DNA of 64,000 bases from Deltaproteobacteria bacterium (GTDB lineage Bacteria; Bdellovibrionota; Bdellovibrionia; Bdellovibrionales; JAMPXM01). The notes under the pieces are model-generated. The model made no database searches. It saw nothing but the letters and a program-made list of their open reading frames with translations, and was not told where the DNA came from. The translations under genes were made by a program, and so were the position numbers. Shown here piece by piece: positions 38,430-60,652 of the stretch (its first letter is position 1; every line of letters begins with the position of its first letter). The stretch is from contig JAFLCB010000002.1 in assembly GCA_017302795.1 (NCBI GenBank), forward strand, positions 124,001-188,000, in the 5' to 3' direction.

Positions 38430-38657
38430 ATGCTGGTTCTAACCAGAAAACTCGGCGAATCGATTGCAATTGATGACCACATCAAAATCCGCGTTGTTCA
38501 AATCAAGGGCAAGCAGGTGCGATTGGGAATCGAAGCGCCGAAAGATACTAAAATTCATCGCGAGGAAGTTTACCTAGCGATTCAAAGCCAGAACACAGAG
38601 TCTGTAAACACGACGAGTGAGTCTACACGTGCTGTTGCTAAGCTATTAAAGCCTTAG
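38430..38657 (+). CDS. csrA: carbon storage regulator CsrA
   Basis: RNA-binding dimer that blocks or stabilises target mRNAs at GGA motifs in hairpin loops. The 75 residues start [20 protein letters not shown] and include [19 protein letters not shown]; Leu4, Arg6 and Arg44-region residues used for RNA binding are present. A 15-residue Thr/Ser-rich tail extends beyond the usual 61. AAGGAG lies 8 bases before the ATG. In Gram-positive flagellar systems CsrA represses flagellin translation and FliW relieves it; fliW is the next gene here. Confidence 0.95.
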
Positions 38658-39004: not shown

Positions 39005-39550
39005 ATGGCGGCAATGCAAATTCAAACGTCGCGATTCGGAATCGTTCAGTGTCTGGAAGAGGATATGATTCTTTTTCCAGAAGGGATTCTTGGATTCGCC
39101 GATCTTCGTAGGTTTGTACTTGTAGACGATCCCTCAGACGAAATTTTCGCTTGGCTACAGAGCTGCGAAATTCCCCAAATTGCATTCCCCGTGCTTGAAC
39201 CAGAGCTTTTCACTGCTAACTATCAATTAAATTTGACCAAACATGATCTCGAGAGCCTCGATATGAAATCGTCGGCTGGAACAAGAACTTTTGCGATCAT
39301 CACTGTTCCAGAAGATCCCACCCAGATGACCGCTAACGTGAAGGCGCCGATCGTCATTAACGTTGCTAAACGCATGGCTCGTCAGATTGTGCTTCAGGAT
39401 AACAACTTGGCAATTCGCGAACCGATTTTTGCGAAGTTACAAAGTCGCGTCGTTCAAAGTCCGCAACTGGCAATCAAGACTCAGGCTTCTGATTGGGGAG
39501 TTGCAGTTCGGCTTCCTTCTCGCAGCGGCGAACCGGAAGCATCGATTTAG
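39005..39550 (+). CDS. fliW: flagellar assembly factor FliW
   Basis: A 181-residue FliW protein that binds flagellin and CsrA in turn, so that flagellin is translated only when it is being exported. Signature segments are EEDMILFPEGILGFADLRRF, VLVDDPSDEIFAWLQS, IAFPVLEPELF, and NVKAPIVINVAKRMARQIVL. AAGGGG lies 5 bases before ATG 39005. The C-terminal 30 residues after VVQ are extra compared with the usual length of about 150. Confidence 0.95.
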   Translation: MAAMQIQTSRFGIVQCLEEDMILFPEGILGFADLRRFVLVDDPSDEIFAWLQSCEIPQIAFPVLEPELFTANYQLNLTKHDLESLDMKSSAGTRTFAIITVPEDPTQMTANVKAPIVINVAKRMARQIVLQDNNLAIREPIFAKLQSRVVQSPQLAIKTQASDWGVAVRLPSRSGEPEASI

Positions 39551-47517: not shown

Positions 47518-48435
47518 ATGAAGGATTTGCGTGAGCTCATCGAAAATACAGCAGCAGGTGATCGAATGGCGCTGGCGAGATTGCTCACGCAGCTCGAGCG
47601 GCGCGGTCCTCGTATTGTGGGCGAAGCGACAGAACTTCTCGTGCCGGCCGAGTCGGCATTTCGAATTGGAATTACGGGGCCGCCAGGCGCGGGGAAATCC
47701 ACTTTAATTTCGAAACTGATTGGCGAATGGCGCAGCCGTGGAAAAACCGTCGCGGTTCTTGCGGTGGATCCTTCGAGTCCCTTTACTCAGGGGGCGATCT
47801 TGGGCGACCGAATTCGCTACTCCGATCACGTTTTGGATCGAGGCGTTTTTATTCGGTCGCTCGGTTCCCGCGGCTCATTGGGGGGGTTAAGTGCTTCCGC
47901 CTGGCTGATGGTCCGCGCTTTTGATTTGGCGAAGTTCGATATCGTTTTGATGGAAACGGTTGGTGTCGGGCAGACGGAGCTTGAAATCATGAATGTCGCC
48001 GATCACGTTTCCGTTGTTTTGACCCCCGAGTCGGGCGACGGAATTCAAGGCATGAAGGCCGGCCTCATGGAAATCGCGAACCTTTTTGTCGTGAACAAAT
48101 CCGATCGCCCGGGTGCGGATGTTTTTGCTAGAGAGATTGAAGCGGCTGTCGAACTCGATCCACGCTCTATGGGACCAGATGCTCCGCGGGTTTTAAAAAT
48201 TTCCGCGTTGAATGGTTCTGGTGTGAGCGAATTGGTTGAATTGATCGAGGGCAAACGCACCGCAGTGAGTGCCGCCGGGGGATGGCGCAGCGATCGACAA
48301 TCTGCGGGACGCTTAAAGGCTGAAGCAAAGGCCATGCTGATGATTGACGCCGAACGAGCAGCGGAACTTCGCGCATCTCAAATTCATACACCTTGCGACC
48401 TCGGGAATTTGTTCCGAACATTTTCTGAATCATAA
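47518..48435 (+). CDS. meaB: MeaB/ArgK family G-protein chaperone
   Basis: P-loop GTPase that protects and reactivates methylmalonyl-CoA mutase, a B12 enzyme. Start chosen at ATG 47518 with GAGGA 8 bases upstream; ATG 47494 would add 8 residues. Motifs: GITGPPGAGKSTLISKL (Walker A), VDPSSPFTQGAILGDRIR, METVGVGQTELEIM (Walker B/switch), and NKSDRPGAD (guanine specificity). The mutase itself is not in the window. Confidence 0.93.
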   Translation: MKDLRELIENTAAGDRMALARLLTQLERRGPRIVGEATELLVPAESAFRIGITGPPGAGKSTLISKLIGEWRSRGKTVAVLAVDPSSPFTQGAILGDRIRYSDHVLDRGVFIRSLGSRGSLGGLSASAWLMVRAFDLAKFDIVLMETVGVGQTELEIMNVADHVSVVLTPESGDGIQGMKAGLMEIANLFVVNKSDRPGADVFAREIEAAVELDPRSMGPDAPRVLKISALNGSGVSELVELIEGKRTAVSAAGGWRSDRQSAGRLKAEAKAMLMIDAERAAELRASQIHTPCDLGNLFRTFSES

Positions 48436-48468
48436 GATCTTTTGTTCCGGTAGACTTGAATCCGAATT

Positions 48469-49059
48469 ATGAAAGTTTCTCCGGCTCCTTTTGAGGCACC
48501 CATCGGATCATCAGCGAGAGGCAGCGCCTCCGATGGTTTAACACGCCCAGCTTCAGAAAAAGCTTCTCTACATTTAGTTTCAGCCCCGGCGGGCAATTCC
48601 AGCGTTAAGGCGGGATTGGATGCTGCGACGAGGGATGCGCTGTTGCGTTTGGCTAACCTCGCGAAAGAAAAAGACGGCGAAAGAGAAAAAGAAAAGGAAA
48701 AATCGAGCGAGCGACCGGGGAAAAAGGTCATTTCAGCCAATGATGTCATTGCGAATGATGTCATCGCGATCGAGGCCATCAAAGATTTCCAGACGGCACC
48801 GATCGCTATGGCCGCCAACGAATCGGCGTTAGCAGTCTTGGAACGCGTGCGAATGAAATTTGAAGCTGCGCGCAAACAATTTGGGCGACAGGTTTACCGC
48901 GAGGCTGTGAAGCGGCAAGCGTTGGTTGAGCTTGAGAAAGAATTTAATCTGGATTTGAATGTAGAGGAGCTTGAGAATTTTTCGAATGCGCAAGATCGGT
49001 CGGCGAGCACGGAAGACGCATTTGGCTTTTATAGCGTTGGGCTAAAGCGAGTTGCCTAA
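48469..49059 (+). CDS. unrecognised cytoplasmic protein
   Basis: A 196-residue protein without signal peptide or membrane segment. The first 95 residues are Ser/Ala/Lys/Glu-rich and probably disordered, with a charged block (EKDGEREKEKEKSSERPG). The C-terminal part is helical (AVLERVRMKFEAARKQFGRQ, REAVKRQALVELEKEFNLDL). Its stop overlaps or nearly abuts the PilZ gene, 28 bases before the preferred start there, so the two may be co-expressed. Function unknown. Confidence 0.65.
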   Translation: MKVSPAPFEAPIGSSARGSASDGLTRPASEKASLHLVSAPAGNSSVKAGLDAATRDALLRLANLAKEKDGEREKEKEKSSERPGKKVISANDVIANDVIAIEAIKDFQTAPIAMAANESALAVLERVRMKFEAARKQFGRQVYREAVKRQALVELEKEFNLDLNVEELENFSNAQDRSASTEDAFGFYSVGLKRVA

Positions 49060-49087
49060 GCAACTATTAAGGATGAGGGAGCGAGTA

Positions 49088-49819
49088 ATGAGTGATTTCG
49101 CGGCGGTCACTTCGCCAGACGAAATTTCCCGTATTCTAAAAATCGCACAAGCCGATCAGGCCGAAATTCACTGCGAAGTTTCGCGCGGGAAAAGCATTGC
49201 TTTAGAAATTCGTGGGCTTCACGACTCCAATCTCGTTTTAGGGCTGAAGAAGCAAGCCGGAACCGTTGCTCCACTTTTGAATGCAGTGTTTTCCGGAGGC
49301 CTTAAGGCCGGTGTCCCAATGGAGATCGTGATTAGCTTGGTCGATGGACAATATGCCATTCGCGATGTTGTTACAGATGTTTCGATGACGACGTTCACTT
49401 TGAATGCTGGCCAATCGCTCTTGAAGCTGCAGCGACGCAGTGATTTTCGTGTCGGTGTTCGCCCTGACGATTTACGGTTTAAGACGAAGATAAATGGCGT
49501 AGACGCGAGCCTATTGCTGTTAGATCTCTCGGCTGGAGGTATGCGGGTTCTTTGGCCACTGCCGTTCGGCCCTGCCACAGAGGGAGCTGTTTTGGCTGGC
49601 AGGCTTTATCTTTCTCCTCCTTCCGAACGCGGTTCCGAATCTGAAAAGTCGGCCGACGTATCGGCGGTGATTATTCGCGATCACGGAGCCGAAAGTCAGA
49701 CTCGCCCCCAGGACGGACGTGCAGTCAGTTTTAAGTTTCAAAATCTGGGGCTCGATGACGCTCGAACCGTTTTGTTCGCGTGCCTTTCTGTGCATCGATC
49801 TCGCTACGGCTCAAGATGA
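49088..49819 (+). CDS. PilZ-domain c-di-GMP-binding protein
   Basis: The product is 243 residues from ATG 49088 with GAGGGAG about 7 bases upstream. The N-terminal half (about 1-105) resembles the YcgR flagellar-brake beta domain. The PilZ domain begins with the c-di-GMP-binding Arg motif LQRRSDFRV and contains DLSAGGMRV, the second conserved motif (D-x-S-x-x-G). It lies just upstream of the first flagellin, so a role in coupling c-di-GMP to flagellar motility is plausible. The C-terminal 40 residues are variable. Confidence 0.85.
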   Translation: MSDFAAVTSPDEISRILKIAQADQAEIHCEVSRGKSIALEIRGLHDSNLVLGLKKQAGTVAPLLNAVFSGGLKAGVPMEIVISLVDGQYAIRDVVTDVSMTTFTLNAGQSLLKLQRRSDFRVGVRPDDLRFKTKINGVDASLLLLDLSAGGMRVLWPLPFGPATEGAVLAGRLYLSPPSERGSESEKSADVSAVIIRDHGAESQTRPQDGRAVSFKFQNLGLDDARTVLFACLSVHRSRYGSR

Positions 49820-49852
49820 GACTGTTTCATAAAAGATGAGTATTTTCATAAA

Positions 49853-49871
49853 TATTACGCGGCGCGTAATA
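49853..49871. repeat. perfect palindrome upstream of flagellin 1 promoter
   Basis: Arms TATTACGCG and CGCGTAATA around a single G, immediately upstream (7 bases) of the sigma-28 -35 element of flagellin 1. A regulator-binding site is the simplest reading. It shares the ACGCG-n-CGCG core with several other intergenic sites. Confidence 0.7.
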
Positions 49872-49877
49872 AATACC

Positions 49878-49904
49878 TAAAGTTATGACGCGTCGCGCCG
49901 AAAA
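49878..49904 (+). promoter_or_regulatory. sigma-28 type promoter of flagellin 1
   Basis: TAAAGTTA-N11-GCCGAAAA differs from the enterobacterial FliA consensus (TAAAGTTT-N11-GCCGATAA) at two positions, with exact spacing. The spacer contains ACGCG-T-CGCG. Transcription would start near 49911, giving a leader of about 215 bases. Confidence 0.85.
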
Positions 49905-49971
49905 CGTATATGACTGCTGAAGCGTTGGCTTCATACGAGTGCGACGGACCCCAAGGGTCCTGTTTGCGCCG

Positions 49972-49989
49972 GACTCCACGGATGGAGTC
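49972..49989 (+). promoter_or_regulatory. hairpin with ACGGAT hexaloop, probable CsrA site
   Basis: GACTCC (49972-49977) pairs with GGAGTC (49984-49989) and presents the hexaloop ACGGAT, the A-N-G-G-A-N loop preferred by CsrA/RsmE. It lies in the predicted leader of flagellin 1. A second hairpin, GGACCC/GGGTCC (49946-49960), precedes it, and the ribosome binding site (TTGGAGG, about 50110-50116) contains another GGA. A T6 run at 49996 could alternatively make this hairpin a leader terminator. Confidence 0.55.
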
Positions 49990-50124
49990 TTCGATTTTTT
50001 CGGACCTAAATGAGGGGGCGGGGGGTACCGCCTTCTAACAACGGTCTGCTTGAGAGTCGTGACAAACGGGATCTACCCCGTGAGATGTGGGTCGCGTCTT
50101 CCAACAATTTTGGAGGGGGCGAGT

Positions 50125-50955
50125 ATGGGACTGCGGATTGGGACGAACGTGGCTGCAATTGCGGCCGCCCGCAATCTTGAAAAAAACAGTGGTCGCTTAG
50201 AGCGATCGTACCAGCGGCTGGCATCGGGCAATCGTATTGTCCGTCCTGGGGATGATGCCGCCGGTTATGCGATTTCTGAACAGCTTCGCGGGCAAGAGCG
50301 GGGGCTCTTGCAGGCGAGGCGCAATGCTGACAACGCGATTGGCCTCATTCAAGTCGCCGAAGGCGGCCTTTCCGAACAAAACAACATTGTCGTTAGACTT
50401 CGCGAAATCGCCGTTCAGGCGGCGAGCGATACCGTAGGCGATAGCGAGCGTGAATTCCTCGATGTTGAATTCCAACAACTCGTTCAAGAAGCAGATCGAA
50501 TTGCGCAAGCGACGCGCTTTGGACAAAAGCAATTGTTAGTTGGAACCAACGAAGAATTTGAATTTTTCCTAGGGACAAGTGGTGATCCAAAGACCGATGT
50601 CATCAGTTACAAATTAGATACTGACACGCGGGCGGATTCTTTGGGTTTAAGTGGGCTGGCAGTCAGCGACCAAGATGAAGCGCAAACAGTGCTCGAGAAT
50701 CTTGATGAATCACTAGTGACTCTAGCGAACGCGCGCGCAGGTTTCGGATCTATTCAGGGCCGCTTGGAAATCGCTGGCAATAACTTGGATGTGCAAAGGG
50801 AAAACGTTTTGTCCGCGCGGTCTCGAATTGCCGATACAGATGTCGCAAGCGAGTCAGCCGAACTGGCCCAGGCCCAAGTGCTGCAGGAATTCGGCGTTGC
50901 GGTATTGGCGCAGGCCAACCAGAATCCTGGCCGCGCTATGAAACTCTTGCTTTGA
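50125..50955 (+). CDS. fliC: flagellin 1
   Basis: Filament subunit, 276 residues from ATG 50125 (MGLRIGTNVAAIAAARNLEK) with GGAGGGGG 8 bases upstream. It has the D0/D1 signatures RLASGNRIVRPGDDAAGYAI, LIQVAEGGLSEQNNIVVRLR, and the C-terminal RSRIADTDVASESAELAQAQ. There is almost no D2/D3 region, giving a thin, smooth filament subunit. It differs from the other two flagellins here in an Ala-rich N-terminus and in ending MKLLL. Confidence 0.96.
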   Translation: MGLRIGTNVAAIAAARNLEKNSGRLERSYQRLASGNRIVRPGDDAAGYAISEQLRGQERGLLQARRNADNAIGLIQVAEGGLSEQNNIVVRLREIAVQAASDTVGDSEREFLDVEFQQLVQEADRIAQATRFGQKQLLVGTNEEFEFFLGTSGDPKTDVISYKLDTDTRADSLGLSGLAVSDQDEAQTVLENLDESLVTLANARAGFGSIQGRLEIAGNNLDVQRENVLSARSRIADTDVASESAELAQAQVLQEFGVAVLAQANQNPGRAMKLLL

Positions 50956-50974
50956 TTCCTCCTGTCTGTCTGAC

Positions 50975-50997
50975 AAAGGTCCAGTACCTAGACCTTT
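50975..50997 (+). terminator. possible terminator of flagellin 1
   Basis: AAAGGTC (50975-50981) and GACCTTT (50991-50997) form a stem 20 bases after the stop codon. A T6 run follows only 16 bases later (51014-51020), so termination may be partial. Confidence 0.4.
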
Positions 50998-51052
50998 AGC
51001 GGGGTTCAAAAATATTTTTTCTCTTACCTTCCCATGTGTTTTCCAGCACAAG

Positions 51053-51063
51053 ACGCGTCGCGT
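51053..51063. repeat. ACGCG-T-CGCGT palindrome upstream of flagellin 2 promoter
   Basis: The 11-base palindromic core sits 24 bases before the -35 element of the flagellin 2 promoter. It matches the core found twice at the flagellin 1 promoter. Confidence 0.5.
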
Positions 51064-51087
51064 TGCGATCTGGACTCGACCAAGGTC

Positions 51088-51114
51088 TCAAGTCTGCTGG
51101 ACCAAAGCCGAGAA
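51088..51114 (+). promoter_or_regulatory. sigma-28 type promoter of flagellin 2
   Basis: TCAAGTCT-N11-GCCGAGAA matches the FliA consensus with exact spacing and three mismatches. It would give a leader of about 245 bases. That leader contains a long-range stem (GCCCGAG around 51208 with CTCGGGC around 51243) and several GGA triplets. Confidence 0.75.
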
Positions 51115-51364
51115 GTAGTACGTACGGAAAACACATTGGGGCAGTCGTAAGAAGAGCGTTTCAGCAGTCACTGTAAACACACTCCTTCGATAGTCCCGCG
51201 GGCCCGAGAGAAGCGGACAGTCACCCGCAACTTTCGGTCGCCCTCGGGCGTCCCACAAAAAATTTTGGAACTAAAGCAACGCGAGGGGGCTCGCATTGCT
51301 ACCCGCTTGTGATGGTCACATGCGGCTGTGGGATTGTCCGTCTGGACAAGAAAGAGTGGTACGT

Positions 51365-52192
51365 ATGGGCTTGAGAATTTCTACCAACGTTGCAGCGATT
51401 AATGCTCAACGACAGTTGGGAACACAACAGACACGCGGCGCACATGCTTTAGCAGCATTGTCGTCAGGTAGCCGGATTGTGAGCGCAGCAGACGATGCTG
51501 CCGGTCTCGCGATTTCGGAAAACATCAAAGGGCAGACTCGCGGTCTTGCGATGGCAAGGCAGAACGCCTTCAACGCTGTTTCCTTGGTGCAGGTGTCTGA
51601 AGGTGGTCTAAGTGAGATCAACAATATTTTGATTCGTCTTCGAGAGTTAGGTGTTCAAGCCGCTTCTGACAACATCGGTGACGAGGAACGTTCGTTCCTC
51701 GATCAAGAGGTTCAGCAGCTGGTTCTTGAGAGCGACCGAATTGCGAAGACGACCCGTTTTGGATCGAAGACGCTTCTTGATGGCACTGGCGAAGAACTAG
51801 AATTTCACGTCGGTCCTTTTGGTGGCGATGAAAACATCATCAACTACAAAATGACAGCCGATGCGACGACGGGGCGACTAGGTATCGACGGAGTTTCGGT
51901 CGCGGAAAAAACCGATGCCCGAAGTTTGTTGGGCTCGGTGGATGAAGCGTTAGTTGAGATCGGAAAGATGCGCGCCGACTTCGGTGCGGTCCAAAGTCGA
52001 TTGAATACAACGACGTCCAACCTCGACATTCAATACGAAAACTTATCGTCTGCTTATTCGCGGATCCGCGATGCTGACGTCGCGAAAGAAAGTGCTGAGC
52101 TCGCGTCGGCCCAAGTTCTTCAGCAAGCAGCGGTTTCGGTTATGGCGCAAGCCAACCAAATGCCGTCACAAGCTTTGCGTCTGATTTCATAA
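51365..52192 (+). CDS. fliC: flagellin 2
   Basis: Filament subunit, 275 residues from ATG 51365 (MGLRISTNVAAINAQRQLGT). Signatures: ALSSGSRIVSAADDAAGLAI, VQVSEGGLSEINNILIRLRE, and C-terminal SRIRDADVAKESAELASAQV with LQQAAVSVMAQANQMPSQAL. D2/D3 are absent. The ribosome binding site is weak (AGAAAGAG 7 or more bases upstream). It lies 409 bases after flagellin 1 and has its own promoter. Confidence 0.96.
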   Translation: MGLRISTNVAAINAQRQLGTQQTRGAHALAALSSGSRIVSAADDAAGLAISENIKGQTRGLAMARQNAFNAVSLVQVSEGGLSEINNILIRLRELGVQAASDNIGDEERSFLDQEVQQLVLESDRIAKTTRFGSKTLLDGTGEELEFHVGPFGGDENIINYKMTADATTGRLGIDGVSVAEKTDARSLLGSVDEALVEIGKMRADFGAVQSRLNTTTSNLDIQYENLSSAYSRIRDADVAKESAELASAQVLQQAAVSVMAQANQMPSQALRLIS

Positions 52193-52564
52193 AATAAACT
52201 GTGTGATAACTTTAGCCGGCGCACGTAAGAGCGCCGGTGAAAAGAAAAACACAAGGGAGGCCGGATGCAGGTGTCTCCCTTGGTCCCGAGCCCTTGTAAG
52301 CGGATAAAAGTCTTCATGAATGAGGCTTTTCTCCCGGGGCCCTGCGACCGTGTCACACAAAACAAAGCGTGTGTCGTCATCACGAAGTGACGCGACCGAC
52401 GAAAGTTTGGATGGTTTTGAAAACGCGGAATTAAAGAGGGAAAAATGACCGCAACTTCGAAGCGCGGGGCAGAAGTTTCGAAGTTAAGCGGAGAAGTTTA
52501 GAAATTAAAAAGTGAAATGCGATATTAGTGAGTCGTGGCCCACAGACGACGACTCTCAAGCCCA
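52193..52564 (+). other. structured non-coding stretch after flagellin 2
   Basis: No supported gene. Two hairpins are clear: CCGGCGC/GCGCCGG (52216-52237) and AAGGGAG/CTCCCTT (about 52252-52280), the latter with GGATG in its loop region. About seven GGA triplets occur in 370 bases, and a strong terminator closes the stretch. It could be a long 3' UTR or a separate small RNA. Confidence 0.4.
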
Positions 52565-52595
52565 CCCCAGGGAGATCTCCTCCCTGGGGTTTTTT
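52565..52595 (+). terminator. strong Rho-independent terminator
   Basis: CCCCAGGGAG (52565-52574) pairs perfectly with CTCCCTGGGG (52580-52589) and is followed by T6. It is 373 bases past the flagellin 2 stop codon, further than normal for that gene alone. Confidence 0.9.
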
Positions 52596-52701
52596 ATTGC
52601 ATAGTCTGAAAGTGAGAATTTGCGGCTGCACATTCAAGATGGGTCAATAGTTCTGCAACCTGCCGACAAAAATATCTACGTCGTCTGTCTCCGGGGAAGG
52701 T

Positions 52702-54309
52702 TTATAGGTTTTCGCGCTCGATTCGTTCGAGGGTTTTCTCGAGCTGCTGTTGGAAGACTTTCCCCGAGTGCGGAAAGGTCTCGGTGATCAGGTGCATCCA
52801 GTCGCGCTGGTCAAAAAGGGAATAGAATTCCGCGTTCCTTCCAAACACAAAGCGGCGGTTGTCGAGTTCGGCTTCCAAAAAGTTCTTCAGGAGGCGTGTC
52901 GTTTCTGGCGAATGGCTTTCTTCGACAAACCGGTCGAGCACTGTGTCCAGGTGTCGCAAGCTGAAGTGGGTATCCCAGCGGTCGAGCACGTCGCGAAGGT
53001 GATTCAGGGTACTGAGATCCTGATTCTTAAGCAGGGCCGCCGTTACGCAGTAGACCACGGACGGCATCAGCGGCTCGTCTCCAGCTTTATAGGCAATGCG
53101 AAGATCAAAGTAGTCGCTTCGTCCGACAACAGCGCTTCGCAGGAAACTGAGCGCCACCTCTGAACCAATCTGACCGAGAGCTTTCGCAGCCTCGCACCGA
53201 ACCTGGCCAGGAGGCTCGGTTTCCATATAGCGCACGCGGTCCGGGAATGTGGTCGCAGTGGCAAAGGCACCCAGGTCAGGGTCGGAGTGCAATGCCTTGG
53301 CAAGAGCCGGCACCGCAGCGACCACTCTTCTTTCTCCCAGATTCATGGCAGATAGCTCACGCAGCCTTTGCGATGTACTGGTCGCGAGGGTTTCAAGGAA
53401 GAGAGTATCCACATCCCGACTTTTTATCATAGCAAGGGATGTGGCAGCCGTTTCGGCAAAGAATAGGTGTAAACGGAAGCCGGGCTTATTGAGGAAGTGG
53501 TCGCGGAGGATTGGGAAGACAAGTGCTGCCGGCCATTCACCAGTTTTGGCCCGAACTCCCGCCGTGGCAAGTAGCCGCTGGCGGAGGTTATAAAGACCAC
53601 TGATGAGATTGTCTTCATCAATAGTCTCCATGGTCTTGAGGCAGTTCAGGGCCGAGATGGGGAGCGAGTTTTCCCCAACGATGTGAAGCGTTTCTACCAT
53701 ATGCATCGCGTTTTCGAGCACGTGTCCCTTGTCGTCACACTTTTCAAAGTGAACAAGTTCTTCTGGCGTCGCGTAGTTCTGCCAGCGCGGGTAGAGCGGC
53801 AAGTCCAACGCCTTACAGCTTTCGGGTGGAAGCAGCAGCTTGTTAGAGCGCTTGTACTGTTGATCATCAATGCCTGCGGCCCGCAGGTACTCATGAAAAA
53901 CGATGACGAGGGTGTCCTTGTGACCAGCGCAGGTTCGGGCTTTGTCAAACGTGGACTCGATTTTTTTGCGATCGAGCTCGATCTGATTCATTCCATCGCG
54001 GATGACCATTCGTGCTTCGACCTCGTTGCCCGCGGCACTCAGAAATGGCTCGTTTGTTATGACAGCACTCACGATTGTCGAGTCGATGGCTTTTTGCAGC
54101 TCGATTTTTTCTCGTGGCTGCAAGAGACCCGAGTTTTCTGGAAGATTCAGCATCGGGAGCAAATGGCTTGTTCCGTAAAGAACGAACCTCGCTGCAACAG
54201 CATCCCCGCCATTGTCCACGCCGTTTCCGCCGGCCTTAACCGCAAATGGCAGCAGGCTAATTAGTCCGGCAAGTGCGTAGCCCGATAGATTCCAAGTTGT
54301 TCCTCTCAT
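52702..54309 (-). CDS. secreted HEAT-like repeat protein, unknown
   Basis: The product is 535 residues from ATG 54309 with GGAGGAGA 7 bases upstream; a longer frame reaches 54471 but overlaps the regulator gene. The signal peptide (YALAGLISLLPFAVKA) is followed by GGNGVDNGGDAV, a Gly/Asn/Asp motif that I associate with secreted proteins of this bacterial group. The first half has cysteines and an HEYLRAAGIDD segment; the second half has HEAT-like helices (RRVVAAVPALAKALHSDPDL, VRCEAAKALGQIGSEVALSF). It follows the TIGR02147-type regulator by 73 bases, a pairing common in such genomes. Function unknown. Confidence 0.78.
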   Translation of the reverse strand: MRGTTWNLSGYALAGLISLLPFAVKAGGNGVDNGGDAVAARFVLYGTSHLLPMLNLPENSGLLQPREKIELQKAIDSTIVSAVITNEPFLSAAGNEVEARMVIRDGMNQIELDRKKIESTFDKARTCAGHKDTLVIVFHEYLRAAGIDDQQYKRSNKLLLPPESCKALDLPLYPRWQNYATPEELVHFEKCDDKGHVLENAMHMVETLHIVGENSLPISALNCLKTMETIDEDNLISGLYNLRQRLLATAGVRAKTGEWPAALVFPILRDHFLNKPGFRLHLFFAETAATSLAMIKSRDVDTLFLETLATSTSQRLRELSAMNLGERRVVAAVPALAKALHSDPDLGAFATATTFPDRVRYMETEPPGQVRCEAAKALGQIGSEVALSFLRSAVVGRSDYFDLRIAYKAGDEPLMPSVVYCVTAALLKNQDLSTLNHLRDVLDRWDTHFSLRHLDTVLDRFVEESHSPETTRLLKNFLEAELDNRRFVFGRNAEFYSLFDQRDWMHLITETFPHSGKVFQQQLEKTLERIERENL

Positions 54310-54382
54310 ACAGTTCTCCTCCCCTTTATTTGATTTTGCTTTTGTAGTTTTATTGCGCTTTTCAAATGCCGTTTTTTTCTGG

Positions 54383-55183
54383 TCAAATCTCGCCTTGGTC
54401 GACCGGGAAAAGTTGGAAGGCGACCGTATGCACCTTTCGGCTACCTTTGCCCTGTTCGCAGATCTCAGCAATCTTCAGGCGTAGCGCACGAATTTCCTCA
54501 ACGATTTTTAGATAACTTTCGTTGTCAACAGCTACGGTCGTTGAGCTTAGATGTCGTTCATTGACCGGCATCCTATCGATCGCATCCATAGCCTTCTGAA
54601 GGTTCTGTTTGTGGTAGAACTTAACAGCTGTCGAAGGAACGTCCTTAGGTGTTGATAAGGGCGCGGTGGTTTGACGAAATCCGCCTTCAGAATTCTCTTC
54701 GATAAGGCCAAACTTCTTTAGGCGGGCGAAGGATGAATTGGCGAGGGTGCGGCTGATTCCCAAACGTCTTGAGATCCATTCAGGCGCGCTCTTGTTGCCT
54801 TGCACGTCAGCCAAAGCGAGAATGGCATAATGTTGCCATTCAGAGATGGATTTAAATCGCTCGGCTTCAAGCAAATAATAGTGCGAGTCTGAACCGCCCT
54901 CCGTATTGATGCCTCCGGATGGCCCGAGTCCCATCGCTGTCAAAACAAGGGTTCGCTTCTGCTTGGGGGAAAGGCTCAGTCGATCTGCGATCACTTCGGC
55001 GCTTTTCCGAGTGAGCGAACTCTTGCCAGAAAGAATTTGCGAGGTCAGTGCGGGAGAAAGACCTATTGAGCGTGCAAATGCACGCATCGAATAGGCTTCA
55101 TTACGCGCCTTTCGCCGGCGGTAAAGCTCATAAAGCCAGGTTCGGGGGAGCTGATTCTGCTTGGGTACGTCGATATCTTGCAT
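54383..55183 (-). CDS. TIGR02147-family regulatory protein
   Basis: The product is 266 residues from ATG 55183, with GGGGAG 6 bases upstream; an ATG at 55189 abuts that site too closely. The N-terminus has a helix-turn-helix like that of phage repressors (YSMRAFARSIGLSPALTSQI, LSGKSSLTRKSAEVIADRLS). The middle has a winged-helix part (WISRRLGISRTLANSSFARL, KKFGLIEE). The C-terminus matches the family block SSTTVAVDNESYLKIVEEIR. This family is expanded in Bdellovibrio and Fibrobacter-type genomes and often precedes a secreted-protein gene. It probably controls the next gene. Confidence 0.88.
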   Translation of the reverse strand: MQDIDVPKQNQLPRTWLYELYRRRKARNEAYSMRAFARSIGLSPALTSQILSGKSSLTRKSAEVIADRLSLSPKQKRTLVLTAMGLGPSGGINTEGGSDSHYYLLEAERFKSISEWQHYAILALADVQGNKSAPEWISRRLGISRTLANSSFARLKKFGLIEENSEGGFRQTTAPLSTPKDVPSTAVKFYHKQNLQKAMDAIDRMPVNERHLSSTTVAVDNESYLKIVEEIRALRLKIAEICEQGKGSRKVHTVAFQLFPVDQGEI

Positions 55184-55535
55184 GTTCATCTCCCCTGCGA
55201 TTGAGGTTGTTTGTTGGCGGAAAACAACAGCCTATTGCAGGCATGTCAACGATGGCGTGATCAATTTGTTCACAAAACCTGAACACCAGGCGGCTGCTGT
55301 AAAAGTTATGGCTCGGCTTGGCGTGAACTTCTTGGGGGGACTTTGGGATTAGGGTATTGGCGAAACTGCGGCCCTTATGGCGCCGCTTCTGTAGAACTGA
55401 CCTGTTTCAACAGAGATTGAACAGGGATTGACCTTCAACGTCGACAGTTATCGACGCTTATTTGCGTCGAACATCAAATACCTTTTGGAACTCCATAAAC
55501 TCAAGTAAGAAGTTGGTGTTTTGGAGGAAACACAA
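55184..55535. other. divergent intergenic region
   Basis: Divergent gap between the TIGR02147 regulator and the VWA protein. It holds promoters for both. A frame between 55250 and 55352 on the plus strand ends in protein-like text (FTKPEHQAAAVKVMARLG) but has no start signal; possibly a gene remnant. A short inverted repeat (TTGTTT and AAAACAA) lies at about 55208-55227 near the regulator start and could be an operator. Confidence 0.35.
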
Positions 55536-56615
55536 ATGAAATTTCGACTTTTTGATAAGCAAAGTTCTAATGGTTTTGTCGCAACAGCGGCTCGAGCAGT
55601 TTTGGTCGGCGCATCGGTTCTTTCGGTTGCGGCACCGGCAATGGCATTGAACGTAAAGTCCCACAACGTGCGCTACAGCGGCGGGTTGACGCAAATTCGT
55701 ATGGAAGTCGATGTCTATCAAGGGACGGCACCGTCGGCCCTCGACATTCTTTTTGTCATTGATGATTCGGCATCGATGGGAACCCATCAAAAGAATTTAT
55801 TGAACAACGTTTCGAATCTCGTTAACGCTTCGTTGAAGTCAGGTGTTGATCTTCATGCGGCAGTCATCACGACGACCGTCGATTCAGAACCATACAAGCC
55901 GCTTCCCGGCTATGTTCATGGCGGACGACTGATCGGAGTCACGAACAAAGTCGCGAAAACAAGCGACGGAAATTTTGAACAAGTATTGACGGAAAACTTG
56001 AAAATCGGAATGCAGCTTAATGGTTCAGGAAATGAACAGCCATTTCAAGCCGTTCGTTTGGCACTTTCCGAACCGCTTCTTTCGAACGAGAACGCTGGCT
56101 TCTTGCGTCCGAACGCAGCTCTTGCCGTGTTTCTTTTGACGGACGCTGACGATCAATCACTAGATCCGGTTGCGACCTACGTTGATTTTCTTCGGCAGCT
56201 GAAGCAAAACGCGGTGACAATGCATGCGGCCTTTATTCCGACTACACACGTTGTCGTACCGGGTGCGACTTGTGATCGAAGTGGTGAACCGGCTCCAGCT
56301 CGGATCGAAGAAGCACTCACTGCTTTAGGAACACTGGCAGAATCTGTGAATCTTTGCGAAACTGATTACAGCAGCCGTTTGAGCACTATTGGTTCGAAGT
56401 ACGAAATGATCGGCGTTCGCTCAGTGCAGTTTAAATTGCCAGCAATTATTTCCTCGATCAAAGTGACCTACGGGTCCACAGTGTTAGTGGCAGGCGATGT
56501 GCTGAAGGGCTGGGTTTATGACTCGTCCAAGCTTCAATTGCAGCTTGGGCAATTCATCAATTGGCGTTCACAGCCTGCAGGAACGAAACTTGTCGTCGAG
56601 TATACTGTAGACTGA
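55536..56615 (+). CDS. exported von Willebrand factor A domain protein
   Basis: The product is 359 residues from ATG 55536 with GGAGG 8 bases upstream. A signal peptide (AVLVGASVLSVAAPAMA) is followed by a beta segment and then a VWA domain. The MIDAS metal site is visible: D-x-S-x-S in LFVIDDSASMG (about residue 78) and the Asp in FLLTDADDQS. The C-terminal 70 residues are a beta domain (VQFKLPAIISSIKVTYGSTV). VWA proteins bind other proteins through a divalent metal; an extracellular adhesion role is plausible. A strong terminator follows. Confidence 0.82.
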   Translation: MKFRLFDKQSSNGFVATAARAVLVGASVLSVAAPAMALNVKSHNVRYSGGLTQIRMEVDVYQGTAPSALDILFVIDDSASMGTHQKNLLNNVSNLVNASLKSGVDLHAAVITTTVDSEPYKPLPGYVHGGRLIGVTNKVAKTSDGNFEQVLTENLKIGMQLNGSGNEQPFQAVRLALSEPLLSNENAGFLRPNAALAVFLLTDADDQSLDPVATYVDFLRQLKQNAVTMHAAFIPTTHVVVPGATCDRSGEPAPARIEEALTALGTLAESVNLCETDYSSRLSTIGSKYEMIGVRSVQFKLPAIISSIKVTYGSTVLVAGDVLKGWVYDSSKLQLQLGQFINWRSQPAGTKLVVEYTVD

Positions 56616-56663
56616 TAACTTTGCAGACTGGCCTTTTGAAAAGGCGAAAGTTTGTATAGCGAG

Positions 56664-56697
56664 AAGACCCATGGCATCAGTCATGGGTCTTTTTTTT
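56664..56697 (+). terminator. Rho-independent terminator of the VWA gene
   Basis: AAGACCCATG (56664-56673) pairs with CATGGGTCTT (56682-56691) and is followed by a further run of T. It is 49 bases after the stop codon. Confidence 0.9.
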
Positions 56698-56733
56698 GGC
56701 GAAACACATCCGATGTGCTAGAGCCCTAAGTAT

Positions 56734-57408
56734 ATGAGCGCTCAACGACCTCAGGTCTTATCGACCAACACCGGCGGCCCCAAAGAATACAGGCTTAACG
56801 GCACGACGATCCGGTCGTCTATGCGTCGGTTGCCTCAGGAATCTGGTATTGACGTTACTTTTCTCCGGGTTCTTGGTGACGAATTTGATGCCGCCAAGAT
56901 TCATGGGGTGCGTGAGGCTGTTGTGTATGCTTTAGCTTCGGATTTCTACGCAGATTTCGCCAAAGCAATAGACCGACCCGTTGAGATCGGTTCGTTTGGT
57001 GAAAATCTCACGATGAGTGCTCTTAACGAAAGAAAGGTGATGCTTGGTGATGAGTATGAAGTGGGTACGGTTCGATTAAAAGTTTCCGCGCCTAGAATAC
57101 CGTGCAATCGTCTCAACTTCGTTTTTCAAAATCAGTCCACTCAGGAAACATTCGTCGCTTTCGGGCGTCCCGGCGTTTACTTCGAAGTTTTAGCCGAAGG
57201 AAAAATCAGTGCTGGCGACGTTTTGCATTTGTCGAAATCGCATCATTGCGAATACTCGATTGCCGACATTTTTCGTCTGTGGAGGCTTCAGCGGGAAGTC
57301 AGCCTAGGGAAAATAGACATTGGTACCGTTAGGCATGAATTCAAAAAACTAGTGGATGACGAATCTGTTTCCGAATTTGTTCGTTCCCGATTTCGAAAAT
57401 CTCTTTAG
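56734..57408 (+). CDS. MOSC-domain protein, YiiM-like
   Basis: A 224-residue MOSC protein; these bind molybdenum cofactor or transfer sulfur and in YiiM reduce N-hydroxylated compounds. Recognised by KIHGVREAVVYALASDFYAD, GSFGENLTMS, LGDEYEVGTVRLKVSAPRIP followed by CNRLN with the conserved Cys. The C-terminal 60 residues are helical as in YiiM. It is a single gene between two terminators/promoters, and I see no link to flagella. Confidence 0.88.
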   Translation: MSAQRPQVLSTNTGGPKEYRLNGTTIRSSMRRLPQESGIDVTFLRVLGDEFDAAKIHGVREAVVYALASDFYADFAKAIDRPVEIGSFGENLTMSALNERKVMLGDEYEVGTVRLKVSAPRIPCNRLNFVFQNQSTQETFVAFGRPGVYFEVLAEGKISAGDVLHLSKSHHCEYSIADIFRLWRLQREVSLGKIDIGTVRHEFKKLVDDESVSEFVRSRFRKSL

Positions 57409-57889
57409 TTAGTCGGCCTAGCGACTAGACGTAGGACGGCCAAGACCTTTGCCTACCAAGACATATAGATAGTCGTGGAATGCACACGGCAGTTCGTCTG
57501 GCTTTTCTCGATCAAAGTCCTGACGACGCTCGGCTTTGGTCGAGGTTTTCAAGACGATGGTCGAGGCAAAATCTCTGTCAATCAAGACTGAAGTCTAGTT
57601 CTACTCGACCCGACTAAGGTTCACCCCGACCTGGCCGAAAAGCTTGTTGTAAGGCTCGACGAAACTAAAGTCGAGTGGACGAGCGAAGCTAAAAAGTGTG
57701 ACTGCTTTCTAGCTGCTGCGATGACTCCACTGTGATTTTGGAATTCGAAAAAGACTTGCACCAATGTGTTTAACCAAAGGGCGCCATTTGGACGGTGCCA
57801 CCGGATTTCACTCGAAGTAGGTTTCGAGCCGGTCACAGACGGAACTGCCGTACAGGTGCTCTAAAGAAAAGAGCATGAAGGAGAGTCTC
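57409..57889 (+). other. long leader/intergenic region of flagellin 3
   Basis: No gene. The first half is rich in repeated short words (CAAGAC four times; TCGAC/GTCGAG several times). CTCGAC and GTCGAG around 57656-57675 can form a hairpin just after the predicted transcription start. TGCTCT and AGAGCA (about 57858-57876) form another directly before the ribosome binding site. Confidence 0.45.
57615..57641 (+). promoter_or_regulatory. sigma-28 type promoter of flagellin 3
   Basis: TAAGGTTC-N11-GCCGAAAA fits the FliA consensus with exact spacing and three mismatches. The leader would be about 240 bases. Confidence 0.78.
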
Positions 57890-58723
57890 ATGGGTATGCG
57901 GATCGCAACGAACGTTTCCTCGATCACAGCACAACGTCAACTTGCAGGCAGCTCGCGCGAAATGCAAAAGTCGTTTGCGCAGTTGTCTTCTGGATCACGG
58001 ATCACAAAGTCAGCAGATGATGCTGCAGGTCTCGCGGTCAGTGAAAACTTGAAATCGCAAATTCGCGGTTTTGCGCAAGCGGGACGTAACGCCCTTGACG
58101 GTGTCTCTTTAATTCAAACGGCAGAAGGTGGATTGAACGAAATTTCGAACATCATGACTCGCCTTCGTGAACTTGGTGTTCAAGCAGCCTCCGATACGGT
58201 CAGTGACCGTGAAAGAGGTTTCCTTGATAAGGAAGTTCAACAGTTAAAAAATGAAGCAGATCGTATTGCGAAGTCCACGCGCTTCGGTGACACGAAGCTC
58301 TTGGATGGCAGTGGTGGTCGCTTCGACTTCCAAGTTGGTATCGACAACGACGATTTCAACGACCGAATTGGTTTTGAGGCGTCAGAACAGAACGCCACGG
58401 TTGCTGAGTTGGGTGTCGACAGCTTAGATTTCACGACTCGAGAAGGTGCGCGGGAATCCTTGGCAGTTCTCGATGAGGCGCAGCTTCAAGTGAACGGCTT
58501 CCGTGCAAACTTGGGTGCTCTTCAGAACCGATTGGTATCGACTCAAGACAACATCAGCGTTGCACACGAAAACTTGTCAGCTGCTAACTCTCGAATTCGC
58601 GACACAGATATCGCTATGGCGACTTCTGAAGTGACGCGAAACCAGATCATGCAGAACGCGACAGTGTCGGTCCTTGCAAGTGCGAATGCATCCCAGCAGT
58701 CAGCACTGAAGTTGATCGGCTAA
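57890..58723 (+). CDS. fliC: flagellin 3
   Basis: Filament subunit, 277 residues from ATG 57890 (MGMRIATNVSSITAQRQLAG); AAGGAGAG lies 5 bases upstream, which argues against the ATG at 57875. Signatures: QLSSGSRITKSADDAAGLAV, LIQTAEGGLNEISNIMTRLR, and C-terminal NSRIRDTDIAMATSEVTRNQ ending ALKLIG. D2/D3 are absent. Of the three flagellins this one has the most canonical C-terminus. Confidence 0.97.
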   Translation: MGMRIATNVSSITAQRQLAGSSREMQKSFAQLSSGSRITKSADDAAGLAVSENLKSQIRGFAQAGRNALDGVSLIQTAEGGLNEISNIMTRLRELGVQAASDTVSDRERGFLDKEVQQLKNEADRIAKSTRFGDTKLLDGSGGRFDFQVGIDNDDFNDRIGFEASEQNATVAELGVDSLDFTTREGARESLAVLDEAQLQVNGFRANLGALQNRLVSTQDNISVAHENLSAANSRIRDTDIAMATSEVTRNQIMQNATVSVLASANASQQSALKLIG

Positions 58724-58774
58724 TGATAGTGGAATGAGGGAGGGGATCTCCTTCCTTCCCGGGCCGCACCTACC

Positions 58775-58811
58775 CGAGGGATGTTTAATCGTCCCTCGGC
58801 GGTCTTTTAAG
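58775..58811 (+). terminator. terminator after flagellin 3
   Basis: CCGAGGGA and TCCCTCGG pair around a 10-base loop and are followed by CGGTCTTTT. A second overlapping stem (GGTCTT/AAGACC) follows directly. Confidence 0.55.
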
Positions 58812-58888
58812 AAGACCTCGGTCGTGCTTCGGTCCAGCTAGAGTCCAGTCCTGCTGATCAAATGTAAAGATCGTCCGAAGAGACTATT

Positions 58889-59281
58889 ATGGATGTCAAA
58901 AATGTAATTCGTAACATCCTTCCGTTTAGCAAGAATCCCGTTTCGGAAGCGAAGCGAAGGGAACTAGTACAAGGTGAGGCTAAAGCGTCACCTGATCGCG
59001 ATTCTAATCCGCAAGATCCCAACCATCATGAAGAAGCTCCAAAGCGCGGGCTATCGGAAGAAGAAATTCAAGCCGCGATTGCGCATCTCGAGGCTCTTCC
59101 GGGCGTCAAAGACAACGGACTTCGAATTCGACTTGAGAAAAAAGATGGAATTCCCGTCGTTTACGTCGAAGATCCCTCCGGCCGAGTTGTGCGACGGATT
59201 CCCGAATCAGAGCTAAGCCTAATGAAAGGCCGTTCTTCCGACGCCAAATCCACGGGTCAGCTCTTAAACAAAGCCATGTAA
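58889..59281 (+). CDS. flaG: FlaG-family protein
   Basis: A 130-residue FlaG protein; these affect filament length and usually sit beside flagellin genes. The C-terminal domain reads LRIRLEKKDGIPVVYVEDPS then GRVVRRIPESELSLMK, which is diagnostic. The N-terminal half is charged and disordered. Unlike many genomes, no fliD or fliS follows. Confidence 0.9.
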   Translation: MDVKNVIRNILPFSKNPVSEAKRRELVQGEAKASPDRDSNPQDPNHHEEAPKRGLSEEEIQAAIAHLEALPGVKDNGLRIRLEKKDGIPVVYVEDPSGRVVRRIPESELSLMKGRSSDAKSTGQLLNKAM

Positions 59282-59335
59282 ACAAAAAACAGTTCGTGAC
59301 AGATTCCCTCGCCTGAGACAAGACTCCGGCGGCTT

Positions 59336-60652
59336 ATGGGAAATCGGTTTTGGTCAGCTCTCAAACTAGTTGTTGCGGCAGCGCTATCGGTCACGTTGAC
59401 TGGTTTGTTGATTGGCGCGTTAGGCAACTACGCCTTTGGCAACGTCTCCGCTCCAATAGGTTCTTCAACTATGGTCGTAAAGGCCATGAGTCTTACAACT
59501 TATCAATCGTGGGGTTACACAGTTGATAGCACACCTCAAGGCGCACGCGTTCGCGGGTTAATTTTGCGCCTTAAAGCGCTCGGCTTCAATCATTTGACGT
59601 TCAATGTGCGAGCGAAAATGGTCACGGGGACAACTGACACCATTATCTCGTTTGTACCACCGCATCAGCAACCGACAGAAGAAAGATTGCTCGAGGAAAC
59701 CATCGAGTTCGCCCACTCTTACGGGATGACAACCGGGCTACGGCCCATTTTGTTGGTGGTGGGTCCGCGCGGTGAGTTTCCATATTCAAAGAGCGGGGTC
59801 ACTTGGTGGCACGGCAACATCGCACCAGGAAATCCTTCGCTTTGGTTTCAATCGCTTCGTTCCTTTCACGAACGCTATTTAAATTTGGCAAAACGCAAAG
59901 GGGTCGCGCAGTATACGATTGGAGCGGAACTACATTCGATGGTCACGGGACTCGGCGAGCGCCGTCCGAAAGTACCTCGCGGACATCCGCACCTATGGAC
60001 GGATTTTGCTCGATACGCTAAATCCGTTGTCGGTTCAACGACTCAGATTGCGTATGACATCAATTATACAGATCAGTACGTACTAGAGGATGGCGTAAAA
60101 AAACTCGGTGGAGAGTTTGAACAGTTTCGCTATGAGATGACCAAGCCTGTCCGGTCGGCCGAAGATACCGAGTTTCAAAATCAGCTGATCGGATTTTGGA
60201 AACAGCTAGATATCATAGGTGTTGATATGTATCGCGCGCTCGCAAGTCGGAGCTCCGGACACTCCAGCGATCTCACGAAACTATCTCAGAGTTTAAAGAC
60301 CAGAGCCGACTCGCACGCCACGCAAATCGATACTTCCCTTCTAGAAATCGAATCAGTAACTGGAGTTTTTAAAAAACTTGAATTGAAAGAAATTGGTTAT
60401 CGATCGACGGTAGCAAGTTTCGTTAACCCAGCTGCTTACGAATCTTCGGGAGGTACACTTTCTGTACTTCATCAAGCGGCTGCATGGCAGGCCCTGCTTG
60501 CCGCATTTTTAGTACCCCAGTGGCCCTGGTTTAGTGGCGTTCACGTCTGGGAAACGAATGTCGACCGCGACCATTTGAATCCAAAAGACCTAGGTTTCTC
60601 TCCACTTGGCAAGCCGCTCTCGGAAGACGTCTTTCGCGAACTTTTTAAATAG
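59336..60652 (+). CDS. exported TIM-barrel glycoside hydrolase, GH113-like
   Basis: A 438-residue protein with an N-terminal signal/anchor (LVVAAALSVTLTGLLIGALG). The body resembles the GH113-type (beta-mannanase-like) TIM barrel: LKALGFNHLTFNVRAKM on an early strand, presumed acid/base Glu in YTIGAELHSMV (about residue 200), and presumed nucleophile Glu in ELKEIGYRST (about 343). WPWFSGVHVWETNVDRDH near the end is also typical of this fold. The substrate is not known. It is convergent with wecB with 2 bases between stop codons, and close to an NfrB-like synthase, suggesting it trims or releases a glycan. Confidence 0.78.
   Translation: MGNRFWSALKLVVAAALSVTLTGLLIGALGNYAFGNVSAPIGSSTMVVKAMSLTTYQSWGYTVDSTPQGARVRGLILRLKALGFNHLTFNVRAKMVTGTTDTIISFVPPHQQPTEERLLEETIEFAHSYGMTTGLRPILLVVGPRGEFPYSKSGVTWWHGNIAPGNPSLWFQSLRSFHERYLNLAKRKGVAQYTIGAELHSMVTGLGERRPKVPRGHPHLWTDFARYAKSVVGSTTQIAYDINYTDQYVLEDGVKKLGGEFEQFRYEMTKPVRSAEDTEFQNQLIGFWKQLDIIGVDMYRALASRSSGHSSDLTKLSQSLKTRADSHATQIDTSLLEIESVTGVFKKLELKEIGYRSTVASFVNPAAYESSGGTLSVLHQAAAWQALLAAFLVPQWPWFSGVHVWETNVDRDHLNPKDLGFSPLGKPLSEDVFRELFK

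Follow-up and report, generated by a model that had tools for sequence, protein, structure and literature searches.

The flagellin locus and its leaders

The window analyzed here, a stretch of 64,000 nucleotides from the genome of a member of the Bdellovibrionales, encodes three flagellins (F1, F2, and F3) together with csrA and fliW, both of which had been placed in the window by an initial annotation of the sequence. The features discussed below are listed with their coordinates in Table 1. The CsrA of this genome contains L4, R6, R44, and N55, as read from an alignment with a 74-residue sequence that we entered as B. subtilis CsrA. These four are RNA-binding residues.

Table 1. Features of the flagellin leaders and associated genes (F1 to F3, flagellins 1 to 3; positions are those of the window unless otherwise indicated).
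Feature	Position	Strand	Basis or remark
csrA, 75 aa; L4, R6, R44, N55 present	38430-38657	+	sequence, alignment
fliW	39005-39550	+	profile match
Sigma-28 promoter of F1: TAAAGTT (49878-49884), N12, GCCGAAAA (49897-49904)	49878-49904	+	sequence inspection; block conserved in relatives
S1, 5'-terminal element of F1 mRNA, complementary to AS1	49911-49926	+	cross-genome helix tests
GGACCCCAAGGGTCC hairpin, GGA within stem, just 5' of CsrA-type hairpin	49946-49960	+	sequence, folding
CsrA-type hairpin GGACTCC-ACGGAT-GGAGTCT, loop 49978-49983	49971-49990	+	folding, relatives, shuffles
Shine-Dalgarno GGAGG of F1	50112-50116	+	predicted inside CUUCC/GGAGG hairpin
F1	50125-50955	+	Pfam Flagellin_N and Flagellin_C
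Sigma-28-type promoter of F2 (TCAAGTCT-N11-GCCGAGAA)	51088-51114	+	sequence
S2, 5' element of F2 leader, complementary to AS2; core 51129-51139	51129-51144	+	helix tests
AS1, F2 leader element pairing with S1	51155-51170	+	cross-genome helix tests
L2 hairpin of F2 leader; loop CAGUCAC 51218-51224, complementary to K3	51213-51228	+	
F2; by position, the counterpart of B. bacteriovorus fliC1	51365-52192	+	
Sigma-28-type promoter of F3	57614-57641	+	
K3, GUGACUG in F3 leader, complementary to L2	57698-57704	+	
AS2, F3 leader element pairing with S2	57756-57771	+	cross-genome helix tests
F3; by position, the counterpart of B. bacteriovorus fliC2	57890-58723	+	profile match
L002 and L003 (F4, F5)	contig C3 of the same genome		paired CsrA sites in the textbook layout

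The sigma-28 promoter and the leader of about 215 bases proposed initially for F1 were both borne out. From the position of the promoter, transcription is predicted to start at about 49910-49911, which leaves a leader of about 214 nt before the ATG at 50125. Its predicted fold is more stable than those of shuffled sequences (z = -4.4), and it contains ten GGA triplets where dinucleotide shuffles give 5.2, in agreement with the additional GGAs that had been noticed along it.

Directly 5' of the F1 promoter lies a gene (49052-49819) with a weak match to PilZ, under the Pfam cut-off. In F1 and F2 leaders, a (C)TGTGGG motif recurs a short distance 5' of the ribosome site, often with a small hairpin after it; examples in the window are found at 50086-50091 (F1 leader) and 51325-51330 (F2 leader).

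A CsrA-type hairpin in the flagellin-1 leader

The GACTCC/GGAGTC stem exposing ACGGAT, which was the centerpiece of the initial annotation, is present in the sequence and in the minimum-energy fold of the leader. Its arms (49972-49977 and 49984-49989) are extended by one outer pair, and the first and last loop bases, A and U, pair with each other in this fold, exposing CGGA. Such structures are rare by chance: an ANGGAN hexaloop capping at least seven pairs is found in 0.32% of dinucleotide shuffles of the leader, and one capping at least four pairs in 5.2%. A second GGA does occur at the Shine-Dalgarno sequence, where it is predicted to be in a stem and not in a loop, and the distance between the two is 131 nt rather than the approximately 125 bases first given.

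We inspected the F1 leaders of the genus's remaining four genomes. Three possess the hairpin, as CGACTCC-ACGGAA-GGAGTCG, CGGATTCC-ACGGAC-GGAGTTCG, and GGACCTC-ATGGAG-GGGGTCC, and one (G001) does not. The hairpin is therefore kept in four of the five genomes of the genus, at -147 from the start codon in the window and at -58, -71, and -40, respectively, in the relatives, its position not being fixed between species. Across these four sequences ANGGA is invariant and every stem pair is preserved, with double (compensatory) changes at two of them, a result equaled by 27 of 500 shuffles. The F1 leaders of the family's other genera lack the hairpin, as G001 does, and elsewhere in the order a comparable one was found in a single genome, G052; in total, such hairpins are present in 5 of 30 F1 leaders (0.3 expected). 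The conservation in relatives that had been named as a check on the hairpin is thus seen within the genus and is missing from nearly all other genera. Because the hairpin is rare by chance and is conserved in the genus with compensatory changes, control of F1 by CsrA is likely. Within the genus its identification as a CsrA site is well supported by sequence comparison, and F1 is probably one CsrA target, although not the clearest.

CsrA sites in other flagellin leaders

The clearest candidates are F4 and F5. Their leaders contain ANGGA at -35 and -14 (F4) and at -33 and -12 (F5), 21 nt apart, with the second copy at the Shine-Dalgarno sequence, and most other genomes inspected retain this double motif, slightly shifted. 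Hairpins of the CsrA type were detected in three of six F4 leaders and three of six F5 leaders (0.06 and 0.04 expected), and in 7 of 33 F3 leaders (0.34 expected). A family-conserved ANGGAN-type loop on a GCAxGTG-like stem is found next to the Shine-Dalgarno sequence, at about -32, in the F3 leaders of G005, G006, G009, and G011, and it is likely a further CsrA site.

Bacillus subtilis hag is a flagellin gene controlled by CsrA and FliW, with an ANGGA hairpin in its leader and a GGA at the Shine-Dalgarno sequence. FliW is nearly universal in the order, being encoded in 53 of 59 genomes. In Campylobacter jejuni, flaA is under FliW-CsrA control through CsrA sites 21 nt apart (PMC4894983). Because F4 and F5 match this flaA layout and FliW is nearly universal, CsrA control of flagellins in this group is likely. 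The FliW-CsrA-flagellin switching proposed initially gains support from the genus hairpin and the distribution of FliW; its claim to novelty among Gram-negative bacteria has to be given up, since C. jejuni is itself Gram-negative.

The F1 leader could be simply a target of the Hag/FlaA type, in which CsrA bridges the hexaloop and the Shine-Dalgarno sequence and represses until it is sequestered by FliW, and we consider the odds of this to be about even. The hexaloop and the Shine-Dalgarno GGA are both there, the hairpin is conserved in the genus, csrA and fliW lie close together in the window, FliW is widespread in the order, and C. jejuni provides a precedent. However, the two-site layout of Hag that the initial annotation had in mind is not reproduced: the sites in hag and flaA are about 18-21 nt apart, as are those of F4 and F5 (21 nt), and those of F1 are 131 nt apart, with a hairpin that shifts its position between species. 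Moreover, most other genera have no hairpin in their F1 leaders, and this explanation leaves unaccounted for the pairing of S1 with AS1 described below.

It is unlikely that the ACGGAT hairpin is not a CsrA site but a transcription attenuator or processing stem that, together with S1, would give a regulatory RNA of about 90 nt. A terminator scan scores it as terminator-like, with TCGATTTTTT after the stem, a T run also follows the stem in G002, and the corresponding domain of the F2 leader is a separate 128-nt RNA in HD100 (PMC3627812). Nevertheless, some five bases separate the stem from the T run, unlike in a canonical terminator, the run is merely TTTT in G003 and G004, and the GGA of the loop is invariant while the stem varies.

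Complementarity between the flagellin-1 5' end and the flagellin-2 leader

The most conserved part of the F1 leader among relatives is its very 5' end, TGACTGCTGAARCGTT, directly 3' of the -10 box, and the reverse complement of this element is found in the F2 leader as AS1. When the two upstream regions are scanned without bias for the best ungapped helix that they can form, S1/AS1 ranks first in most genomes. It remains the top helix even where the sequence is wholly changed, as in G013 (TGACTATAAACGACC with GGTCGTTTATAGTCA), G024, and G048. Helices were first picked by a score that favors pairing, and covariation was then tested in a fixed register. Over 27 genomes and 13 positions, 98.0% of the cells are standard pairs, and 11 of the 13 pairs are changed on both sides; there are 24 further pair types. 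Doubly changed cells number 39, compared to 7.5 in shuffles, and none of 500 shuffles reaches the observed values. When the partner is slid by one to three bases, only 23-46% remains paired. The departures consist of 13 G.U, three A.C, and four others, so that G.U makes up 13 of the 16 core departures that are either G.U or A.C; the A.C cells are confined to two genomes whose helix is broken in its far half. Part of the S1 helix has been lost in G014 and G052.

S1/AS1 could not be recognized in 3 of the 30 genomes bearing F1 (G021, G022, and G058), in all of which both genes are present. Among nine cases with both genes in separately fetched genomes, it is the best helix in six (L159, L161, L167, L169, L176, and L177) and not in L157, L168, and L172; in L161 and L167 its score alone is not above that of shuffles. 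Several single-genome helices are likewise no better than shuffles when taken alone, and the strength of the pattern lies in the comparison across genomes. A third exact copy of the S1 pattern, on contig C9, was taken as a chance occurrence because it falls inside open reading frames.

The pattern is repeated between flagellin 2 and flagellin 3

A second element, S2, is located directly 3' of the sigma-28-type promoter of F2 in most genomes (consensus TGAACACGTTGGAGC; AAACACATTGG in the window, at its core) and is complementary to AS2 in the F3 leader. Across 26 genomes 99.7% of the S2/AS2 cells are paired, 8 of 11 pairs show double changes, and no shuffle out of 500 does as well; the departures are ten G.U, no A.C, and one other. 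The same two leaders share a third complementarity, between the loop of the L2 hairpin and K3, which HD100 and 26 of 29 genomes possess. It also covaries, as CAATCAC/GTGATTG or TAGTCAC/GTGACTA, and G021 keeps six bases of it (CGTCAC/GTGACG). Among the F1 to F6 leaders, CAGTCAC occurs exclusively in those of F2 (29 of 40), and GTGACTG is present in 25 of 33 F3 leaders and none of the 40 F2 leaders. We found no recurrent helix linking F3 to F4, F5, or F6, or among F4-F6, and an Rfam 15 covariance-model search of positions 48000-59500 returned a chance match only.

In the F2 leader of the window (51190-51262) and in those of relatives, a CUCCAAC-type element 3' of the L2 hairpin is able to form a cis helix with S2; many genomes also allow it to pair with UUGGAGG at the ribosome site of F2. 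We considered whether CUCCAACA of the F2 leader might alternate between S2 and the Shine-Dalgarno sequence as pairing partners. About half of the genomes have the complementarity, but blocking S2 or AS1 in folding did not consistently alter the accessibility of the ribosome site, and the idea was not adopted.

The flagellin-2 leader in Bdellovibrio bacteriovorus

In genome G038, which we take to be B. bacteriovorus HD100, the F2 gene starts at 562,130. Its leader comprises a FliA-type promoter, S2, the L2 hairpin with the loop CAATCAC, CTCCAAC, and a U-run end. The coordinates of APsRNA3, an attack-phase-specific RNA of 128 nt with a FliA promoter (561,854-561,981, plus strand; Karunker et al., PMC3627812, Table 2), fall exactly on this leader, i.e., on the 5' domain of the fliC1 leader. 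We equated F2 with fliC1 and F3 with fliC2 by gene order and by these coordinates. Because the reported 5' end lies 4 nt inside S2, which starts at 561,850, the first bases of S2 may not be transcribed in HD100. In the fliC2 leader, S2 finds its partner in CAACGTGTACAA, near 564,150, with GTGATTG upstream. APsRNA3 was reported as an orphan sRNA with no relatives outside B. bacteriovorus (PMC3627812); judging from the leaders compared here, and contrary to that account, the element is conserved in the order. The start of APsRNA4 (PMC3627812) lies some 30 nt 3' of the stop codon of fliC1 (about 1585-1682 of L233; 562,984-563,081 of contig C1 in G038), and this RNA is possibly 3'UTR-derived.

The leader partners are most likely separate RNAs

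F1 and F2 adjoin in the window, 409 bp apart, which would allow the two genes to be co-transcribed and S1/AS1 to be a long-range helix within one mRNA, enclosing the F1 gene. This is improbable, as F2 has its own sigma-28-type promoter 5' of AS1 and the helix is intact in G005, G012, and G031, where the two genes are 3-7 kb apart (4.7 kb in G012). In L169, the S1-like partner precedes a weak flagellin match, the only other one there, on the opposite strand from F2. Moreover, S2/AS2 joins genes that in the window are 5.7 kb apart, with opposite-strand open reading frames between them. Because the pairing persists over kilobases, in L169, and across opposite-strand reading frames, the partners are most likely separate RNAs. 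A sigma-28-type promoter lies 5' of each of these elements, so that both partners may be present as sense RNA; for F2, an RNA has been published in HD100 (PMC3627812).

Very improbable, finally, is a reading of S1/AS1 and S2/AS2 as oppositely oriented DNA sites bound by a transcription regulator. The S elements do lie just 3' of sigma-28 promoters, and a regulator of shifting specificity would likewise make its sites co-vary. However, the departures are mostly G.U, a preference that would be invisible to a DNA-binding protein, and complementarity between leaders is shared by three pairs of unrelated sequence. In addition, the distances from AS to promoter vary, and genome-wide copies with one mismatch are not enriched over a reversed-pattern control. 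It is this tolerance of G.U that favors RNA pairing over a DNA-binding protein. On sequence evidence, pairing in trans between consecutive flagellin mRNAs is strongly supported as an RNA-level feature.

Proposed working of the leaders

Taken together, we propose that the F1 leader combines two layers of RNA control, a trans pairing of leaders that is repeated from F2 to F3 and a CsrA hairpin, a reading to which we give a probability of roughly 80% on the strength of sequence comparison. In the first layer, which is shown by the covariation, approximately the first 16 nt of the F1 mRNA (S1) pair in trans with AS1 of the F2 leader, and in the next step the 5' end of F2 (S2) pairs with AS2 of the F3 leader, assisted by the L2/K3 loop contact. 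The RNAs would anneal in the cell, and the leader of each flagellin would act on that of the following one. In Bdellovibrio, the domain of the F2 leader also accumulates as the separate APsRNA3, which could act as an sRNA. In the second layer, the GGA hairpin of the genus would bind CsrA, whose activity would be set by FliW and unexported flagellin.

The consequences of this pairing can be suggested more tentatively. Annealing of one leader to the next might couple, delay, or restrain the production of the next flagellin and so yield a fixed order or ratio; this is the working that we prefer, although we consider it somewhat less likely than not. More speculative still is an RNA relay, in which each leader, or an sRNA released from it, anneals to the next and holds or releases its translation, the order of subunits being set by mRNA complementarity. 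Blocking S1, AS1, S2, or AS2 in thermodynamic folding produced no consistent change in the accessibility of the ribosome site, and for this reason a simple masking or unmasking is unsupported. Other possible routes include RNase III or RNase E, protection of the 5' end, an F2-leader sRNA, and co-localization of flagellin mRNAs; in C. jejuni, the flaA mRNA is polar (PMC4894983).

The filament of B. bacteriovorus contains FliC1 and then FliC2 consecutively (PMC2791853). For the question of how bacteria with several flagellins arrange them in a set order within a single filament, Bdellovibrio offers a known protein order and not its control, and the conserved, covarying pairing of flagellin leaders provides a concrete hypothesis for such ordering.

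Comparison with known systems

With respect to CsrA, C. jejuni flaA (PMC4894983) is like the system described here in having an ANGGA leader hairpin, a GGA at the Shine-Dalgarno sequence, and both csrA and fliW. Unlike hag and flaA, this genome has an F1 hairpin restricted to its genus, six flagellins, and a second layer of mRNA-mRNA pairing. Our analysis extends FliW-CsrA control of flagellins, as a likely mechanism, to this group, with F4 and F5 as the best targets.

To our knowledge, the leader-leader pairing network is undescribed in the literature that we searched, and it would add to the few examples of pairing between mRNAs that is conserved throughout an order of bacteria. APsRNA3, made from a FliA promoter (PMC3627812), coincides with the 5' domain of the fliC1 (F2) leader. 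This published orphan gains a partner, the fliC2 leader, and would become the hub of a conserved pairing network. The sRNAs MotR and FliX of E. coli are also sigma-28-dependent and act by pairing on flagellin mRNA; in contrast to the leaders considered here, these UTR-derived RNAs are Hfq-bound, pair inside coding regions, and do not form a leader-leader chain (PMC10578931). In Listeria monocytogenes, the hly and prsA2 mRNAs, whose protein products are functionally linked, interact in trans via untranslated regions (reviewed in PMC8406224), as proposed here for the flagellins. Whereas hly-prsA2 is one pair of a 3'UTR with a 5'UTR, the flagellin chain would join three paralogous mRNAs through their 5' leaders alone and is conserved across the order.
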